Shown here piece by piece: positions 7,408-23,228 of a stretch of DNA of 23,443 nt; the stretch's first letter is position 1; the number at the start of each line of letters is the position of its first letter. The DNA is from a virus, in IMG/VR virus record IMGVR_UViG_3300001850_000318, positions 1-23,443 of that record; one strand, given 5' to 3'. Position numbers and translations under genes: made by a program. Under the pieces are notes generated by a model. It worked only from the letters and a program-made list of their open reading frames with translations. It had not been told where the DNA came from and did no database searches.

Positions 7408-7950
7408 TTATTCATCAAAGAAATATGATTTGAGGCTGTCACGGAGCAATTCATAAGACAAATTTAATTGTTGATGAACGATGTTTCGAGTTAATTTGAG
7501 TTCTTTGCAGACTTGGTTAATATTATGATCAAAGAAAGTGAAATAACCAAGAATGATCTTGGCGACAATTGGTAATTCATCAATATTCTTTCTGATGATT
7601 TCTTCTTGTTCTTTGATAAGTAATAGGCGAATGGGATCATCCTTTTCATCACCCATGTCAAAATTGTCTGGAATCGCAACAGTTTTAATGTTCTTTTTAT
7701 TATTTGATCTATTAAATGTGTCTAAAGCAGACCAATTAGAATGTAAATGTAAAAAAGTAGTAATACGAGAACGAGTTGAATCGTAGCGCAGCATCTTGTG
7801 GCATAACGCAAGATAAATTTCTTGCAAAATATCCTCATTTATTGGCTTTCCTTTAAGCGAATGTTTAATTACAGCAATATTCTTCTCCATTTTTTCCCTA
7901 CTTTTTTCAGTAAGTCTCGCTTGTTTCTTATTTTTCTTTTCACTAGACAT
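7408..7950 (-). CDS. Phage sigma-70-like factor (regions 2 and 4)
   Basis: Such factors redirect host RNA polymerase to phage promoters. Residues about 38-85 show a region 2 pattern: EDILQEIYLALC, then YDSTRSRITTFLHLHSNW and a basic NRSNNKKN stretch. The usual 'f.tWl' core is TTFLH here. After an acidic linker, residues about 121-172 resemble region 4, with INQVCKELKLTRNIVHQQL as the helix-turn-helix and a final helix. Length (180) is typical of small ECF-type factors. The N-terminus (1-25) is strongly basic. The start at 7950 follows AGGGGG. The AT-rich region upstream (7951-8037) has a TATATATGAT box on the minus strand but no clear -35. Confidence 0.78.
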   Translation of the reverse strand: MSSEKKNKKQARLTEKSREKMEKNIAVIKHSLKGKPINEDILQEIYLALCHKMLRYDSTRSRITTFLHLHSNWSALDTFNRSNNKKNIKTVAIPDNFDMGDEKDDPIRLLLIKEQEEIIRKNIDELPIVAKIILGYFTFFDHNINQVCKELKLTRNIVHQQLNLSYELLRDSLKSYFFDE

Positions 7951-9034: not shown

Positions 9035-9093
9035 TTGACTTTCGGAAAAAACTAGGCTAATCTAAAAATACGAAACCCGACCTAAGTTGTCGG
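9035..9093 (+). promoter_or_regulatory. Promoter-hairpin module 1
   Basis: TTGACT (9035-9040), a 17-nt spacer and TAATCT (9058-9063) form a sigma-70-like promoter. Thirteen nt later CCGAC (9077-9081) and GTCGG (9089-9093) pair around the seven-base loop CTAAGTT. A transcript starting about 7 nt after the -10 box would carry this hairpin near its 5' end. The unit reads into the 109-codon plus-strand gene. Three further copies are at 9625, 12586 and 23171. Confidence 0.72.
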
Positions 9094-9132
9094 CAGGATA
9101 GCATCATTTTTTCTTGAATGACGCAGGTAATC

Positions 9133-9624: not shown

Positions 9625-9683
9625 TTGACAAATTATTTTACTAAAGCTAAACTAAAAACAAGGAATCCGACCTTAGTTGTCGT
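9625..9683 (+). promoter_or_regulatory. Promoter-hairpin module 2
   Basis: TTGACA (9625-9630), 17 nt, TAAACT (9648-9653), then 13 nt and the hairpin CCGAC/GTCGt (9667-9671 and 9679-9683) with loop CTTAGTT. Only the outermost pair is lost. The hairpin overlaps the stop codon of the opposite-strand 222-residue gene (9673-9675), so a transcript would run antisense through that gene towards the primase-like gene. Confidence 0.7.
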
Positions 9684-10355: not shown

Positions 10356-10517
10356 ATGGTATCTATGCCTATGACAAGATTATTTTCGGTTGTTTTTGCA
10401 TTTGGATTTGGTTATTGTAAAGTCTTATGGGACAATGAGTTATTCTTTCGGATGCAAGAATATGGACTGTTTACTGATTCAGTAATTGGTTCCAGAAAGA
10501 AATTTGGTGTAGATTGA
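10356..10517 (+). CDS. Possible 53-residue membrane-anchored protein
   Basis: A plus-strand frame with ATGs at 10356, 10365 and 10371 ends at 10517. It encodes a hydrophobic N-terminus (RLFSVVFAFGFGYCKVLW) and a polar tail ending SRKKFGVD, which looks protein-like. No SD precedes any of the three ATGs, and the region is the divergent leader of the 222-residue gene, so this may be chance. Its stop overlaps the -35 box of the promoter for the primase-like gene. Confidence 0.3.
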   Translation: MVSMPMTRLFSVVFAFGFGYCKVLWDNELFFRMQEYGLFTDSVIGSRKKFGVD

Positions 10518-10542
10518 CAAACAGAATGAAACAAAATTATTT
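10514..10542 (+). promoter_or_regulatory. Probable promoter of the primase-like gene
   Basis: TTGACA at 10514-10519 is a perfect -35 box. A 17-nt spacer leads to TTATTT (10537-10542), or 18 nt to TATTTT, both moderate -10 boxes. The start codon is about 40 nt further on. The promoter lacks the CTWAGTT hairpin of the four modules but is followed by an SD-burying hairpin. Confidence 0.5.
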
Positions 10543-10558
10543 TGAAAAATTGAAGCAT

Positions 10559-10580
10559 CTCCACTAGATAAGAGTGGAGG
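10559..10580 (+). promoter_or_regulatory. Hairpin hiding the Shine-Dalgarno of the primase-like gene
   Basis: CTCCACT (10559-10565) pairs perfectly with AGTGGAG (10573-10579) around a seven-base loop. The 3' arm contains the SD (GGAGG, 10576-10580) four bases before the ATG, so the closed hairpin should block ribosome binding. A homologous leader precedes the mini-sigma gene at 12811-12832. Confidence 0.7.
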
Positions 10581-10584
10581 AAAA

Positions 10585-12651
10585 ATGAACAGAACATTAG
10601 ATCAACTCAATAGAATTGGAAAGACAGTAAAGTCTGGTACAAGAGCAATCAAGAAGTATCACATACTAGACGGCAACAAAAACAAAATCTGGTATGATGC
10701 TCTTGTTAAGAATTACAAAACTAACGAGACATATAAGACAAGAAAGCCTCTCATTGTTTCGGCATATGATGAGAGCAAAGCTATTGACTTGCCAGACTAC
10801 AAGAAATCCTGTTTTGCGCTTTACAATTTCTTTGTGCCTCATCAATTAAAGCAATTTATTGTTCGCTGGTGTGATGAAAGCAATTGGAACACACTTGGCG
10901 TTACAAAAGGAAATATATTTGAGCTAACTGATTATTGGACTCATATTACAGGCAATGAAGAAGGCAAAGAATGTTTTCTGAGTCGTACTGAACAAAAGAA
11001 GTTAAAAGAGGCAAATAAACGATTGCCAAAAGAAATTGTCATTAACGGAAGTGAAGTCAGATTTGGTTTAATTGCCAATAACTTGGATGAAAAGTATTCA
11101 TTCTTAAGCATTGATGTCGATACAAGCCGAGATATTGATGAAAATCATGGCAGAACAATGCGTGAAACGGCATTGGAATTACATAACTTGTTTTATCACA
11201 AAGACTTAGGTGATTCTAATGTTAAAAGAATGATTCCGCAAAACATTAGTAAGCAGTCAGTTCAATATTTGTTAGTTTTAAGTAAACCGATGTCGGTTCG
11301 TGATATTCAGCAATTAGCGAATGATAGAATTTCTGGAATGAAGAATCGTGATCGCATTGATTTTATATCACCGAATATCAAAAAGGGAATGAGATTACCG
11401 TTTGATCGGTCTCGTCCTTGTTGTTTGTTTGGTAATTTGCTTCAATATTATGACATTTGTGACATTGAGAGCGCATTGTGGGATGATGATGCTGAGTTGA
11501 CTATAACTGAAGATTGTTATGATTGGATGTTAGATTGGGGGTTCAGAGCGCACAATGTTTCAATTCCTAGTGTTATTCATCAGGTTGATGAGCGAAAAGA
11601 TGAAGTTGTAAGTGCTGCTAATGAAGTTGATTTGTTTGATGAGACTATGATTGAGGAAGTTTGTTCAGTTGTTACGCCAAGTAAGCGTGGCAATTTTAGG
11701 AGCAATTGGTACAGCGATGTTCGCTACTTTATGGCGACAGGTCGCAGCAATACTTATGTTGGTCACAGCAACACGACAATGTCATTTCATTATCTTTCTG
11801 GCGTTGCAAAGTTACTGATGGCATATGGGCACAATCATTCTTACATTGCTGATTGGCTGTGGAAGTCCGTTTTAGTGCAAAGATTTGATTTAACTCATGC
11901 TGAAATAGAAAACATTGTTGAAAGAGCATGGTTGTACGACAAAGAAAACACAATGATGAAGAAGATTGTGAAGAATAATCCAGAATATTCGAATAATATG
12001 TTGCGTCTGGTAGAGACTGGCATGGCGACATTTACTAGTTCTGCCATCGAAGGCAAAGTATTGCAAATCCTCAAAGATGTTCAATTTATGGAACATATTA
12101 AGGGGAACAACAATATCAATGATGTTGCGAAGCTTGTGTCAGTCGTTATCTACAAGGCTTTTAACGGTGTAGGCATAACGAACAACTATATCAAGGCTGT
12201 GATTGAGAAAAATAATTTAGCCATTAACAAGTCACACGATTACATTACAGCTTTTATTTCTGCATTGGCGAAGACAAGATTGGTCCATCGCACATTTACG
12301 GCTTCCAGTAAACATCTGCGTTCTAAATACGAGATTGGCGAAGCAATTAGGGAGTTGATTGCTGCTGTCGATGCTATGGCAGAAGAATTGGCTACCATTG
12401 ATTGTAACGAATTAGCTCCTGTCGTGACGCAAATAATTGATGTTCGCAAAAAGATCAATGCATCTGAAAAACCAAATATGTTGGATTGTGTTGATCTCTG
12501 GTTGTCTTGCGCACATTTTTGTCTGATGGTAGAAAAGAATGAGATCATGGATCAGAAAGTGAGACGGATTAACAAAAAATTATCATTGACTTTGTCGCCA
12601 AGTAAGTTAGTATGCAAAAGTAACCCGTCCTTAGTTGACGGCTGCCGATAA
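10585..12651 (+). CDS. Archaeo-eukaryotic-type primase-like replication protein (AEP/PrimPol-like)
   Basis: This 688-residue protein probably primes phage DNA synthesis. Residues 171-179 (YSFLSIDVD) resemble AEP motif I, with metal-binding D177 and D179. Residues 222-232 (SKQSVQYLLVL) sit where motif II (SxH before a strand) is expected, but with Gln227 in place of His. Residues 256-273 (DRIDFIS, then KKGMRLPF) match motif III, with D259 and the typical RLP stretch. Around 400-470, YGHNHSYIADWLW and LTHAEIENIVERAWLY resemble a PriCT-type helical domain. The C-terminal 190 residues look winged-helix and helical. No Walker A motif is visible, so a helicase must be elsewhere. The assignment is from motifs only. 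Confidence 0.6.
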   Translation: MNRTLDQLNRIGKTVKSGTRAIKKYHILDGNKNKIWYDALVKNYKTNETYKTRKPLIVSAYDESKAIDLPDYKKSCFALYNFFVPHQLKQFIVRWCDESNWNTLGVTKGNIFELTDYWTHITGNEEGKECFLSRTEQKKLKEANKRLPKEIVINGSEVRFGLIANNLDEKYSFLSIDVDTSRDIDENHGRTMRETALELHNLFYHKDLGDSNVKRMIPQNISKQSVQYLLVLSKPMSVRDIQQLANDRISGMKNRDRIDFISPNIKKGMRLPFDRSRPCCLFGNLLQYYDICDIESALWDDDAELTITEDCYDWMLDWGFRAHNVSIPSVIHQVDERKDEVVSAANEVDLFDETMIEEVCSVVTPSKRGNFRSNWYSDVRYFMATGRSNTYVGHSNTTMSFHYLSGVAKLLMAYGHNHSYIADWLWKSVLVQRFDLTHAEIENIVERAWLYDKENTMMKKIVKNNPEYSNNMLRLVETGMATFTSSAIEGKVLQILKDVQFMEHIKGNNNINDVAKLVSVVIYKAFNGVGITNNYIKAVIEKNNLAINKSHDYITAFISALAKTRLVHRTFTASSKHLRSKYEIGEAIRELIAAVDAMAEELATIDCNELAPVVTQIIDVRKKINASEKPNMLDCVDLWLSCAHFCLMVEKNEIMDQKVRRINKKLSLTLSPSKLVCKSNPSLVDGCR
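12586..12641 (+). promoter_or_regulatory. Promoter-hairpin module 3, inside the 3' end of the primase-like gene
   Basis: TTGACT (12586-12591), 16 nt, TAGTAT (12608-12613), then 11 nt and CCGTC/GACGG (12625-12629 and 12637-12641) around loop CTTAGTT. The middle stem pair is T-A where modules 1 and 2 have A-T. The copy is coding: it encodes the last residues of the primase-like protein (NPSLVDG). Confidence 0.6.
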
Positions 12652-12684
12652 ATAATATAATTTTAGAAAAATATCAAGATTGAC

Positions 12685-12712
12685 TTGAAAAAATTATTGT
12701 TGTCATTATAAT
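12685..12712 (+). promoter_or_regulatory. Promoter of a short RNA upstream of the mini-sigma gene
   Basis: TTGAAA (12685-12690), a 16-nt spacer and a perfect TATAAT (12707-12712). The expected start near 12719 lies only about 65 nt before the end of a strong terminator. Confidence 0.6.
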
Positions 12713-12718
12713 ATAGGT

Positions 12719-12783
12719 GTCTGCTGTTTCGTTCGTTCTTTCTCCATCACCCGCTAGTCGAAAGATTAGCGGGTGATTTTTTT
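12719..12783 (+). ncRNA. Candidate small RNA or attenuated leader of about 65 nt
   Basis: The 65 nt between the TATAAT promoter and the end of the intrinsic terminator contain no gene. The 5' half is U- and pyrimidine-rich and mostly unstructured; the 3' half is the terminator hairpin. It could be a free-standing small RNA or an attenuator leader for the mini-sigma gene 54 nt further on. The start point is inferred from promoter spacing. Confidence 0.45.
12747..12783 (+). terminator. Strong intrinsic terminator with GNRA-type tetraloop
   Basis: TCACCCGCTA (12747-12756) and TAGCGGGTGA (12767-12776) pair perfectly for 10 bp. Three more pairs (G-U, U-A, C-G) close a GAAA tetraloop. Seven T follow (12777-12783). 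It ends transcripts from the primase-like gene and both promoters upstream. Confidence 0.92.
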
Positions 12784-12810
12784 ATTTATCAAGAAAAAAA
12801 ATTAAACATA

Positions 12811-12832
12811 CTCCACTACATACAGTTGGAGG
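12811..12832 (+). promoter_or_regulatory. Hairpin hiding the Shine-Dalgarno of the mini-sigma gene
   Basis: CTCCACT (12811-12817) pairs with AG(T)TGGAG (12824-12831) with one bulged T and a six-base loop. GGAGG (12828-12832) is in the 3' arm, four bases before the ATG. The sequence closely matches the leader of the primase-like gene, including the A-rich stretch before the ATG. Confidence 0.62.
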
Positions 12833-12836
12833 AAAA

Positions 12837-13100
12837 ATGACTAATAGAGAAATTTATGATACTAACATCAGAGCCATTTATCATGCAGCACACACATATA
12901 GCAGCAGATTTCACGATAGAGAAGACTGGTTACAGATGTGCGCTTTAAGATGTTTGCAATATTTACATTGTTATAGCGAAGATAAAGGTAAATTTTCAAC
13001 ATGGGTTCATTATGTGATCAAAAACTTTCGAGATTATGAAGATAATAGAAAATCAAACAAATTGTTCAAAACAAATTACGATTGGAAAAATCATCGATAA
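12837..13100 (+). CDS. Mini sigma factor: sigma-70 region 2 only
   Basis: The 87-residue protein fits sigma region 2 along most of its length: a first helix (IRAIYHAAHTYSSRF), then D30-W-L-Q33 at the usual 'DL.Q' position, CYSEDKGKFSTWVHYVIKNF (45-64) matching the '-10 recognition' core with W56, and D66 and N70-R71 following. A basic end (KSNKLFKTN) follows. There is no region 4, so it cannot contact a -35 box in the standard way. It may work with another subunit, with the other sigma-like protein, or as an anti- or co-factor. Its translation is probably limited by the leader hairpin and its transcription by the terminator at 12747-12783. Confidence 0.7.
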   Translation: MTNREIYDTNIRAIYHAAHTYSSRFHDREDWLQMCALRCLQYLHCYSEDKGKFSTWVHYVIKNFRDYEDNRKSNKLFKTNYDWKNHR

Positions 13101-15066: not shown

Positions 15067-18000
15067 TTATCCCATTTGTGTTGCATGAATACGGTAAAGA
15101 GCATATTGCAATGTGCCAGACAAAGTATTTCTTTCTTGTGGATACGCATAATTATATCCGAGAACACCTTGAGTATGAGCCATTTGCGCTCCTTGATATT
15201 CTGTTGTTGCACTAGTTGTATATATTGCAGAATATGCACCGGCAGCAGCATTAGTCGTTGCATCTAGTATGCTAAATCCTGTTCCAGCCGTTCTAGCCAC
15301 GCCTCCCCATATGCTAAGAGTACCACCGACTCCAGCAACAGATTGCACCCAGAATATTTGATTGCCAGATGTGTTATTCCATATTCTTGCTACTGTTGAT
15401 GAATATGTGTGACTTGTTGAGTCTGTGTTAAACAACGGTCTTGGAACTTGGTTGTCGTAGTTTGCAATATAACGGCTTATTAAAGTGTCTTCTGTTGTGG
15501 TAGGAGAAGAAGCACGAATTGTGCCGATCAATCTCTTTGTATTATCAGTAGACAACACATAAGTGCCATTTTTATATGTTAATGTATCTGCTCTTACATT
15601 ATCAGTTGTCCAAGCAGTAGAAAATGTAAGTTGTGGATTTACGCCGTTCGGGCTTGCGTAAATGTCATATAGTTTTCCACTTGTTAAACCAGTAATAGCA
15701 AGAGAAACACAAGTTCCAGATGTGTTATATAATTGCCAAGATGAACCATTCCACAGACCAATATTATCGCCAGTATATGGATTGAGATAGATTGTACTTT
15801 GTGATGCTTGGTCAGTAGATGTTATTGATACGCCAGATTGAACGCCTATTCGGAAATCATTGATACGGGTAATACTATTTCTTATTTCATTTCCTACATG
15901 AAACCAGCCAATCTGTCCAGATGCTATTGCTCCACTTGTAATTGCTCCACTTGTGACTGAAAATAGTCCAACAGTACCAGATGCTGTTGGGGCAAAAGAT
16001 TTATTGCCATAAATTCCAGATGTTACATAAATGTTTTTGAAACTTGCATTTTGTGGGAATTGTCTACCTATATACAGATTGTCAATTTCTCCAGCCCATT
16101 CACATTTTAATGTGATTCTTCCTCTAGATGGAGATCGATAGCCGGTTGCACTACTGGTACTTGGAACGATGACAATGGCATCTGCACCGACACAAATTCC
16201 ACCATAGCTTATTGATGGAGCAGTCCATCCACTCGGGGTTGACAAACCACCCTCAATGTATCTTTCTGCTGCCGTACTACCACCAGTTAATGGTAACAAT
16301 AAGAATTGTCCACCATAATAAATAGGATACCATGTATTGGTAATTGCGGTTGTAAATGCAGTCCAATTTAATCCATCATAAGAAATATATTGAGTTGTAC
16401 TTGCACTATTTGTAATAAGGAAAATTCCATTGCCATAAATGATATATTGCGCTGTGATCGCTGCTGGCAAATAAGCTGTTGTAAATGTACCTGATCCATC
16501 CCATATTTGTATTTGATCAGTTGATCCTGATTGAATGAAGATATATTTTCCTGCTCCATACGCAACATCTTTCCAGTTACCTGCCGCTGGAGTTGGCATT
16601 GTCACTTGAGTAAAATCTCTGGCAGTAAGATGACTACTTGCCCAAACACCCGTAGTCGCCGTCCTTACACCAAGAGCAACGCATTTCGTACCAACACTTC
16701 TTATGTTATAAAGCGTATCGAATATTGGACTTGAAATTGCATATGTCGTAAAATTGATTCCATCATAACTGTAATAATCAACACTAAGACCGCCATCTTG
16801 AACGATAACCCATGTCCCCATGCTCTCAACATAGACAATTTTTTTATTTCCAGCGTAAACAGTACCAAAAACAGAACAATTAGACCAATTTATTCCATCA
16901 TAGCTATAAACAGGTGCATTTGTTCCAGAGTCTACGGCAACATACATATTCATTCCTGCTGCAACATCAGTCCATGTCCTTGTTGCCGGAAGAGTGACAG
17001 CAACCCAATTGAAACTTTCACCACCAATAAAATTGTTCAAATGATCAGTCACAATAGTTGACTGTGTTGTCAATTGTTGGAAATTAAGAGTTCCAGAAGA
17101 AATAATTCCACTATTTATGTTTAATTGATTCCATTGTAATGCTGTTCCATTTAGCTGAAGAAAGTATCCAGATGTAGGTGTAGTGCTTCCTAAGTGATAA
17201 GTTCCAATTTGTCCGCTGGCAATTGATCCGCTAATTACACTATTAGCAGAAATATTACCACTATTGATTGAATTTACATTTATGTGACCGCTGCGGACTA
17301 CTCCAGATGATAATGAATTAAGTCCGATCTGACCAGAAGCAATAATTCCAGATGTTATGCTATTTGGAGCAAAATGTCCGCTATTGACAATTCCGCTTGC
17401 AAGATTGAATGTGTTAATTTGTCCACTTGCGATTGCACCACTTGCTATAGAAGCAGGTGCATAATGTCCGCTATTGACAATTCCGCTTGCAAGATTGAAT
17501 GTGTTAATTTGTCCGCTTGCTATTGCACCGCTTGCAATTGAAGCGGGTGCATAATGTCCGCTATTGACGATTCCACTTGCAAGATTGAATGTGTTAATTT
17601 GACCTGATGCAATTACACCGCTTGCAATTGAATTGGCAGCTATATGACCGCTATTTACAGCATTCGCAGATAAATGATATTGTCCTATTTGACCCGATGC
17701 AATGCTGCCACTAACAACAGAGTTGTTACCAAGATAGCCACTTGTAACTTGTCCTGAAGTTAAACTTGTTGTAGGAAGTGTTGACCAAGTTAATGCCAAA
17801 TTTTGATTCAACATTAGGAAATAACCTGATGTTGGTGTAGTGCTTCCGAAATGGTAAGTTCCAATTTGACCAGATGCTATACTACCACTAATAACAGAAT
17901 TTGCACTAATATTTCCACTATTTACAGCATTTGTTGTTATATGTCCGCTGTTTACGATTCCACTTGCAAGATTGAATGTGTTAATTTGTCCGCTTGCTAT

Positions 18001-20109
18001 TACACCGCTTGCAATTGAAGCGGGTGAATAATGTCCACTATTGACAATTCCGCTTGCCAAATTAAATCTGTTAATTTGACCTGATGCAATTACACCGCTT
18101 GCTATAGAAGCGGGTGCATAATGTCCGCTATTGACAATTCCGCTTGCCAAATTAAATCTGTTAATTTGACCTGATGCAATTACACCGCTTGCTATAGAAG
18201 TGGGTGCATAATGTCCGCTATTGACGATTCCACTTGCAAGATTGAATGTGTTAATTTGTCCGCTTGCTATTGCACCAGAATAAATAGAATTATTGCTAAG
18301 ATGATATCGTCCTACTTGTCCGCTTGCTATTGCACCGGAATAGACAGAATTAGCGCTAAGATGATATTGTCCTACTTGTCCTGATGCGATACTCCCGCTT
18401 ACAACAGTATTGTCACCTAAATAACCAGATGTAACTACACCTGATGTAAGTGAAAATCCTGCACTTGGAACAATCCAATCAAAAAAAATTCCATCTGTAG
18501 TAAGTATGTATCCACTAGTTGGCGCAGATATTGTACCAAGATGATATTGTCCTACTTGTCCGCTTGCTATTGCACCGGAATAGACAGAATTATCACTAAG
18601 ATGATATTGTCCTATTTGTCCAGATGCAATGCTTCCACTTACAACACTATTGTCTCCCAAATAACCAGATGTAACTACACCTGATGTAAGTGAAAATCCT
18701 GCACTTGGAACAATCCAATCAAAAGAACTTCCATCTGTAGTAAGTATGTATCCACTAGTTGGGGCAGATATTGTACCCAGATGAGGTTGTTGTATTTGAC
18801 CTGATGCTATTGCACCGGAATAAACAGAATTGTCTGATAGATGATACTGACTGATTTGTCCAGATGCAATGCTTCCACTTACAACACTATTGTCTCCCAA
18901 ATAACCAGATGTAATTATACCTGAACTCAAAGAAAAAGTAGACGGGACAACAATCCAATCAAATGCATTTCCATCTGTAGTAAGTATGTATCCACTAGTT
19001 GGCGCAGATATTGTACCAAGATGAGGCTGTTGTATTTGACCTGATGCAATATTACCAGAATAAACAGAATTATCGCTAAGATGATATTGTCCTAGTTGTC
19101 CTGATGCTATTGCACCGGAATAAACAGAATTATCTGATAAGTGATATTGTCCTAGTTGTCCTGATGCTATTGCACCGGAATAAACAGAATTATCGCTAAG
19201 ATGATATTGTCCTAGTTGTCCTGATGCTATTGCACCGGAATAAACAGAATTATCTGATAAGTGATATTGTCCTACTTGTCCTAATGCTATTGCACCAGAA
19301 TAAACAGAATTATCTGATAAGTGATATTGTCCTACTTGTCCTGATGCGATACTACCGCTTACAACACTATTGTCTCCCAAATAACCAGAAGTAACTACAC
19401 CTGATGTCAATAAAGTTCCAGCATTTGGAATAATCCAATCAAATGCATTTCCATCTGTAGTAAGTATGTATCCACTAGTTGGGGCAGATATTGTACCCAG
19501 ATGAGATTGTTGTATTTGTCCTGATGCTATTGCACCAGAATAAACAGAATTATCTGATAAGTGATATTTTCCTACTTGTCCTGATGCTATTGCACCGGAA
19601 TAAACAGAATTATCGCTAAGATGATATTGTCCTAGTTGTCCTGATGCTACTGCACCAGAATAAACAGAATTATCTGATAAGTGATATTGTCCTACTTGTC
19701 CAGATGCAATGCTTCCACTTACAACAGCATTATCTGCAATCATTCCTGATTGAACGCAACCAGAAGACAGAGAAAAAGGTATCGCCCAATCAAATTGTGT
19801 TCCATCAGTAGTTAATACAGCGCCAGATGTTGGTGATGTGATTGTTCCAAGATGAGGTTGTTGTATTTGTCCAGATGCGATATTACCACTTACGACAGCA
19901 GAATCTCCAATCATACCGCTGGTAATAGCACCACTCCCGATTAAGGGAGTGGCATAAGGATTGACTAAAACATTGACGCTGCCAGATAGTACGCCACCGA
20001 CATACAGAATCTTGCCATCAACATCAGTAGCCAGTTCTCCCGTATAGAGAGACGCTGGCACATTACCGCTGCTGGTGCTAAATTTATTGATAATCGTAAT
20101 ATCTGGCAT
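15067..20109 (-). CDS. 1680-residue repeat-built tail fibre protein
   Basis: This is probably the host-binding fibre. Residues 1-57 resemble fibre attachment ends (SLYTGELATDVDGKILYVGG). About 58-1030 is a very long shaft of repeats on SGxIASGQ(I/V), in three types: a 20-residue YHLSDNSVYSGAIASGQ unit, a 30-residue INTFNLASGIVNSGHYAP unit, and 40-residue inserts with GYILTTDG and FDWIV. About 1035-1330 has repeated GxGxYV...YSYDGINW motifs, suggesting a beta-propeller. About 1418-1680 (NDFRIGVQSG, TIYLNPYTGDNIGLWNGSSW, then TEDTLISRYIANY and VPRP) matches a C-terminal domain common in phage fibres. The ATG at 20109 follows GGAG. It precedes the terminase genes, three bases from the small subunit. 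Confidence 0.9.
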   Translation of the reverse strand: MPDITIINKFSTSSGNVPASLYTGELATDVDGKILYVGGVLSGSVNVLVNPYATPLIGSGAITSGMIGDSAVVSGNIASGQIQQPHLGTITSPTSGAVLTTDGTQFDWAIPFSLSSGCVQSGMIADNAVVSGSIASGQVGQYHLSDNSVYSGAVASGQLGQYHLSDNSVYSGAIASGQVGKYHLSDNSVYSGAIASGQIQQSHLGTISAPTSGYILTTDGNAFDWIIPNAGTLLTSGVVTSGYLGDNSVVSGSIASGQVGQYHLSDNSVYSGAIALGQVGQYHLSDNSVYSGAIASGQLGQYHLSDNSVYSGAIASGQLGQYHLSDNSVYSGAIASGQLGQYHLSDNSVYSGNIASGQIQQPHLGTISAPTSGYILTTDGNAFDWIVVPSTFSLSSGIITSGYLGDNSVVSGSIASGQISQYHLSDNSVYSGAIASGQIQQPHLGTISAPTSGYILTTDGSSFDWIVPSAGFSLTSGVVTSGYLGDNSVVSGSIASGQIGQYHLSDNSVYSGAIASGQVGQYHLGTISAPTSGYILTTDGIFFDWIVPSAGFSLTSGVVTSGYLGDNTVVSGSIASGQVGQYHLSANSVYSGAIASGQVGRYHLSNNSIYSGAIASGQINTFNLASGIVNSGHYAPTSIASGVIASGQINRFNLASGIVNSGHYAPASIASGVIASGQINRFNLASGIVNSGHYSPASIASGVIASGQINTFNLASGIVNSGHITTNAVNSGNISANSVISGSIASGQIGTYHFGSTTPTSGYFLMLNQNLALTWSTLPTTSLTSGQVTSGYLGNNSVVSGSIASGQIGQYHLSANAVNSGHIAANSIASGVIASGQINTFNLASGIVNSGHYAPASIASGAIASGQINTFNLASGIVNSGHYAPASIASGAIASGQINTFNLASGIVNSGHFAPNSITSGIIASGQIGLNSLSSGVVRSGHINVNSINSGNISANSVISGSIASGQIGTYHLGSTTPTSGYFLQLNGTALQWNQLNINSGIISSGTLNFQQLTTQSTIVTDHLNNFIGGESFNWVAVTLPATRTWTDVAAGMNMYVAVDSGTNAPVYSYDGINWSNCSVFGTVYAGNKKIVYVESMGTWVIVQDGGLSVDYYSYDGINFTTYAISSPIFDTLYNIRSVGTKCVALGVRTATTGVWASSHLTARDFTQVTMPTPAAGNWKDVAYGAGKYIFIQSGSTDQIQIWDGSGTFTTAYLPAAITAQYIIYGNGIFLITNSASTTQYISYDGLNWTAFTTAITNTWYPIYYGGQFLLLPLTGGSTAAERYIEGGLSTPSGWTAPSISYGGICVGADAIVIVPSTSSATGYRSPSRGRITLKCEWAGEIDNLYIGRQFPQNASFKNIYVTSGIYGNKSFAPTASGTVGLFSVTSGAITSGAIASGQIGWFHVGNEIRNSITRINDFRIGVQSGVSITSTDQASQSTIYLNPYTGDNIGLWNGSSWQLYNTSGTCVSLAITGLTSGKLYDIYASPNGVNPQLTFSTAWTTDNVRADTLTYKNGTYVLSTDNTKRLIGTIRASSPTTTEDTLISRYIANYDNQVPRPLFNTDSTSHTYSSTVARIWNNTSGNQIFWVQSVAGVGGTLSIWGGVARTAGTGFSILDATTNAAAGAYSAIYTTSATTEYQGAQMAHTQGVLGYNYAYPQERNTLSGTLQYALYRIHATQMG
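17370..18280 (-). repeat. 90-bp direct repeats in the fibre gene
   Basis: A 90-bp unit (30 codons) encoding the INTFNLASGIVNSGHYAP type recurs several times, for example from 17400 and again from 17950, with a few silent or single-residue changes between copies. Several copies are nearly identical at DNA level. Confidence 0.85.
18291..19720 (-). repeat. 60-bp direct repeats in the fibre gene
   Basis: A 60-bp unit (20 codons) encoding YHLSDNSVYSGAIASGQ plus a linker is repeated in tandem, most densely at 19080-19380 and 19560-19700. Some copies alternate between two variants (ATGATATTGT and GTGATATTGT beginnings), which suggests duplication of two-unit blocks. Confidence 0.88.
18421..19500 (-). 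repeat. 120-bp direct repeats in the fibre gene
   Basis: A unit of about 120 bp occurs four times, starting near 18421, 18661, 18901 and 19381, spaced by multiples of 60 bp. It encodes the SGYILTTDG...FDWIV insert and its flanks. Copies differ at only a few bases. Confidence 0.85.
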
Positions 20110-23170: not shown

Positions 23171-23228
23171 TTGACAAATCTAAAAACATAAACTAAACTA
23201 AAAAAAGTAACCCGTCCTAAGTTGACGG
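23171..23228 (+). promoter_or_regulatory. Promoter-hairpin module 4
   Basis: TTGACA (23171-23176), 17 nt, TAAACT (23194-23199), then 12 nt and CCGTC/GACGG (23212-23216 and 23224-23228) around loop CTAAGTT. It reads right, antisense to the minus-strand gene at the window edge; its target is outside the window. Confidence 0.72.

Follow-up and report, generated by a model that had tools for sequence, protein, structure and literature searches.

A Duplicated Leader Predicted to Hide the Shine-Dalgarno Sequences of Two Neighbouring Genes in an Orphan Phage

Sequestration of the Shine-Dalgarno (SD) sequence in a local hairpin has been described for the T4 genes e, soc, 49 and I-TevI and for mobE of Aeh1 (PMC3014915, PMC2988022). 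In T4, the SD is hidden on long early transcripts and late promoters remove the 5' arm (PMC3014915, PMC2988022). The T4 gp43 and RegA operators are RNA sites located beside or over the SD of replication genes (PMC3014915). A quantitative yardstick is provided by the MS2 coat hairpins, for which stabilities of -7.9, -9.5 and -10.3 kcal/mol go with full, 20% and 4% expression, respectively (de Smit and van Duin data, in PMC9894550). SD-hiding leaders have been described for individual genes; one leader fronting two neighbours in an orphan phage would represent a small regulon controlled at translation.

The window analysed here is the whole 23,443-base stretch of the virus record IMGVR_UViG_3300001850_000318. 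It corresponds to positions 9629-33071 of IMGVR_UViG_3300001839_000026 (39,353 bases), with 13 differences, all within the first 129 bases, and has a GC content of 37%. Nearly all genes, including those for terminase, portal, tail, RusA-like and sigma-like proteins, are on the minus strand; the plus strand carries an ORF at 9118/9133 and the two genes that concern us, which are listed below with their leaders.

10545..10588, plus strand: leader copy 1, with arms 10559-10565/10573-10579, SD GGAGG at 10576-10580, AAAA and ATG at 10585 (repeat comparison, folding)
10585..12651, plus strand: 688-aa ORF with no family or structure match
12797..12840, plus strand: leader copy 2, with arms 12811-12817/12824-12831, a bulge at 12826, SD GGAGG at 12828-12832, AAAA and ATG at 12837 (repeat comparison, folding)
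12837..13100, plus strand: mini-sigma gene, encoding an 87-aa sigma region 2 protein (Pfam PF04542; PHROG 1740)

The phage is an unclassified orphan, and its sole other copy found is the longer, near-identical contig, which was the only match when IMG/VR was searched with the 688-aa protein, mini-sigma and TerL. Alignment of TerL led to 80 distant contigs, in which the other matching window proteins were the portal (in 4) and TerS (in 1); both leader genes are absent from all 80. The 688-aa gene had no match in phage and genome collections, and protein searches of these collections and IMG/VR returned no relative carrying a diverged leader. Another feature of the window is a 1680-aa protein (15067-20109, minus strand), probably a tail fibre, which consists largely of SGAIASGQ-type repeats and has many internal DNA repeats.

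The original prediction had named the product of the first gene a primase-like protein. This label is still a guess, as family and PDB searches and the predicted fold gave no match: Pfam, PHROGs and PDB searches were empty or weak, and the single-sequence fold was unusable (pLDDT 37). The sigma assignment of the second gene, on the other hand, was upheld by Pfam Sigma70_r2 (PF04542, E 1.4e-8) and by PHROG 1740, sigma factor (E 5e-4). A further sigma-like gene of 180 aa is found at 7408-7950 on the minus strand (sigma PHROG match, E 1.3e-6), so that the phage carries two sigma-like genes, this one and the plus-strand 87-aa gene with region 2 only.

The two leaders are homologous at the coordinates originally given, and the direct repeat is longer than the 26 bases first claimed: 44 nt can be aligned without gaps at 77% identity. 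Folding of both leaders bore out the proposed pairing of CTCCACT with the SD arm. Copy 1 is predicted to form a perfect 7-bp stem with a 7-nt loop (-10.0 kcal/mol); in the predicted fold of copy 2, this stem carries a single bulged T (12826) and closes a loop of 6 nt (-6.6 kcal/mol). The AAAA spacer between GGAGG and ATG is present in both. In these predictions, each SD is paired in a stable local helix adjoining the start codon, and on a longer mini-sigma transcript the predicted fold is unstable between contexts. The pattern CTCCACTN4-12TGGAGG occurs at just two sites in the window, the two leaders, and in none of 100 shuffles.

Burial of the SD singles out the same two genes. Its opening energy is 9.96 kcal/mol for the 688-aa gene and 7.53 kcal/mol for mini-sigma, ranking first and second among the 44 gene starts of the 39-kb contig. 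The third value, 5.72, belongs to a minus-strand gene and is the highest on that strand, in agreement with the earlier remark that no minus-strand gene inspected has such a leader. However, when upstream bases were shuffled with the SDs kept fixed, two or more gene starts reached at least 7.5 kcal/mol in 44% of trials; hairpin strength alone is therefore not beyond chance. The surprising part is the sequence common to both leaders, i.e., their shared origin, and not the hairpins. With the SD and ATG set aside, the leaders agree at 20 of 27 positions, more than any other of the 946 leader pairs (the runner-up has 17), with a shuffle p of about 1e-5, or about 0.01 once the 946 pairs are allowed for. 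The two copies agree at 7/7 positions of the 5' arm and at 14/14 of the stretch from SD to ATG, TGGAGGAAAAATGA, whereas the loop region has drifted to 5/10 and the 14 bases upstream to about 9/14. Conservation of the arm amid such drift points to selection on the arm, two copies being a thin basis for this reading.

We consider it probable, although far from certain, that the leader pair is a translational throttle acting in cis and present in duplicate, a type of control familiar from phages. A single leader sequence would have been duplicated upstream of two genes on the plus strand; on either mRNA, the 5' arm CUCCACU would fold back onto the strong SD GGAGG, and ribosomes would have to melt this local hairpin before initiation. 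The throttle would be strong for the 688-aa gene, with its perfect 7-bp stem, and mild for mini-sigma, with its bulged one. By the MS2 coat yardstick, -10.0 kcal/mol should throttle and -6.6 barely; the SD being stronger here, the throttling expected of both leaders may shift, and for mini-sigma the weaker hairpin may be fully compensated by the strong SD. We infer that the hairpin is formed in vivo, where it would reduce initiation, and that selection has kept it. Of the original prediction, the part in which a shared hairpin hides the SD thus stands, on folding, SD burial rank and duplication; the other part, in which a protein or RNA opens the hairpins and so controls both genes in concert, gained no direct support. 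Moreover, since the hairpins differ by more than 3 kcal/mol, the leaders would not be expected to respond alike. We also considered an RNA thermometer and rejected it: predicted SD burial hardly changes between 10 and 60 C, and the SD core is still paired at 50-60 C in both predicted folds, so the SD would not be freed within the physiological temperature range. An Rfam search gave nothing above the gathering score.

The same arrangement can be sought in other viruses. In an IMG/VR scan, CTCCACTN5-8AGTGGAGGN3-6ATG was found in 19 stretches from about 8 unrelated sequence groups, against 2 stretches for a control pattern whose 5' arm had been scrambled. Several of the 19 are not followed by a real gene, and much of the excess over the control could be due to other kinds of palindromes. 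Judged by sequence pattern, the hairpin arrangement appears to recur in unrelated phages, as would be expected of a generic solution. In nine IMG/VR contigs (L022, L024-L027, L032, L034-L036), a perfect CTCCACT-AGTGGAGG SD hairpin fronts a 181-aa ORF, whose product we take, as an impression, to be an HNH or zinc-finger type protein; this hairpin is unchanged across two versions with different upstream flanks.

A second repeated element was found, a promoter followed by a hairpin, in six copies over the 39-kb contig. The copies are as follows.

9035-9093, plus strand: cassette copy in the window
9625-9683, plus strand: cassette copy in the window
12586-12641, plus strand: cassette copy in the window, TTGACT ... 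CCGTCCTTAGTTGACGG, lying within the 3' end of the 688-aa gene and directed towards mini-sigma
23171-23228, plus strand: cassette copy in the window
38887-38945, plus strand: cassette copy in IMGVR_UViG_3300001839_000026
1847-1791, minus strand: cassette copy in IMGVR_UViG_3300001839_000026

The cassette reads TTGAC[A/T]-16/17-(-10 box)-AAAA...AAC-CCGWC-CTWAGTT-GWCGG, with a -10 box such as TAAACT and the hairpin 39-42 nt after TTGAC; the match score drops from 35 to 13 after the sixth copy. At pair 4 of the stem, three copies have A-T and the other three T-A; pair 2 varies among C-G, T-A and T-G, and the loop is constant. Such covariation fits a hairpin at the 5' end of a transcript better than a simple operator, though relatedness among the copies weakens the count. 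Elsewhere in IMG/VR the pattern was not matched, and GTDB genome contigs yielded a single chance-like match; this match, in the Leptospiraceae contig L122, was set aside, as the contig has no gene in common with the phage and roughly one such hit would be expected by chance. Apparently unique, the repeated cassette may be a more unusual regulatory feature of this phage than the SD-hiding leaders.

Several other explanations for the leader pair deserve consideration. The repeat might be a recent copy that regulates nothing, with the hairpin arising as a side effect of a strong SD that lies beside a C-rich stretch. The 44% of shuffle trials giving hairpins as strong, together with the absence of comparative evidence of constraint, speak for it; nevertheless, the arm is intact while neighbouring positions drifted, and SD burial rank and pair similarity independently pick the same two genes, for which reasons we regard it as unlikely. 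One leader on two genes is also what a common regulator would need, and both loops carry A-x-A-T-A. A phage or host protein binding the hairpin at a loop of the form A-S-AUA could repress or open both leaders, as T4 gp43, RegA and MS2 coat protein do on their sites, but no candidate regulator was identified, the loops match at only 5/10 positions and differ in length, and the stems differ in stability; the chances of this reading seem slim to us. Slimmer are those of a promoter switch of the kind documented for T4 e and I-TevI (PMC3014915, PMC2988022), in which the SD is hidden on long transcripts and a proximal promoter yields short, translated ones without the 5' arm. Several promoter-like sites do lie upstream of both genes, yet a scan for sigma70-like promoters, read by eye, found none starting inside either 5' arm. 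The following site keeps the hairpin, its start being predicted about 9 nt upstream of it.

10514..10543, plus strand: sigma70-like promoter TTGACA-18-TATTTT before the 688-aa gene (consensus scan, 10/12; such matches are common by chance in AT-rich DNA)

With that start, ~9 nt of transcript would precede the 688-aa leader hairpin, as in the other cassettes. The dyad CTCCA-N11-TGGAG could be a DNA operator, or it might protect the mRNA as a 5'-terminal hairpin, with SD hiding incidental in either case, and the outer 5-bp arms CTCCA/TGGAG are indeed spaced by an identical 11 bp in both copies. However, no DNA-binding candidate was found, copy 2 is not near a transcript start, and the exact placement over the SD would be left unexplained; of all the explanations weighed here we give this one the least credence.

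The last explanation concerns the space between the two genes, which contains the following.

12685..12712, plus strand: promoter-like TTGAAA-16-TATAAT (consensus scan, 11/12)
12719..12784, plus strand: putative short RNA or attenuator leader of about 65 nt, with ~27 unpaired pyrimidine-rich bases followed by a terminator (inference)
12746..12777, plus strand: intrinsic-terminator-like hairpin of 14 bp followed by a T run (U7) (sequence scan)

A small RNA made from this unit could repress both genes together by pairing with their SDs and start codons, with a UCUCCA element that covers the SD being common to the leader hairpin and the RNA. The layout is suggestive: an 11/12 promoter, 27 unpaired bases and a 14-bp terminator with U7. 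The unpaired 5' part, GUCUGCUGUUUCGUUCGUUCUUUCUCCA, is predicted to form 25 pairs over 28 positions with the SD-start region of the 688-aa gene (-26.3 kcal/mol), a stronger duplex than at any other of the 44 gene starts. Dinucleotide-shuffled seeds did as well at this start in 11/1500 cases, at the mini-sigma start in 92/1500 and at both together in 1/1500. Since it pairs over the SD and start codon, the putative RNA would close both starts and not open them. On the other side, a pyrimidine-rich seed finds some SD easily (some gene start reached -26.3 in 266/1500 shuffles), three non-self sites in the genome pair more strongly with the 5' end of the RNA, the mini-sigma start (-18.4 kcal/mol) is only ninth of 44, and the candidate was noticed after seeing a fold. 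We therefore consider repression by such an RNA quite unlikely, if a little less so than control by a common protein. A more elaborate version, in which the RNA encoded between its two targets pairs across both starts and the duplicated leader is kept so that the state of the SD is controlled only by this RNA or its lack, is more doubtful still, although it ranks above the promoter switch; if true, it would be a compact switch made of RNA alone, linking a putative replication gene with a sigma-like protein. The 12719-12784 unit could just as well be a mini-sigma attenuator or simply a terminator. Pairing in cis of 12719-12745 with the mini-sigma SD was tried as well and rejected, as it appeared in one fold only and vanished with 15 more bases.

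Read as a cis-acting throttle, the leader pair finds its closest counterparts in T4 e, soc, 49 and I-TevI and in Aeh1 mobE, with which it shares a local stem over the SD in a DNA phage mRNA, predicted in our case, and leader-specific control of single genes. Unlike the T4 e/I-TevI type, no late promoter that would remove the arm was seen in the sigma70-like scan, and a single homologous leader stands before two adjacent genes. The layout of the gp43 and RegA operators, an RNA site next to or over the SD, corresponds to the model of the original prediction; those operators act through a known repressor protein, and none was identified for the leaders of this phage. As in the MS2 coat gene, the hairpin includes GGAG and its stability falls in the same range, in which stability sets translation in MS2; in contrast to that RNA phage, whose start codon is inside the hairpin, AAAA-AUG here lies outside the stem.
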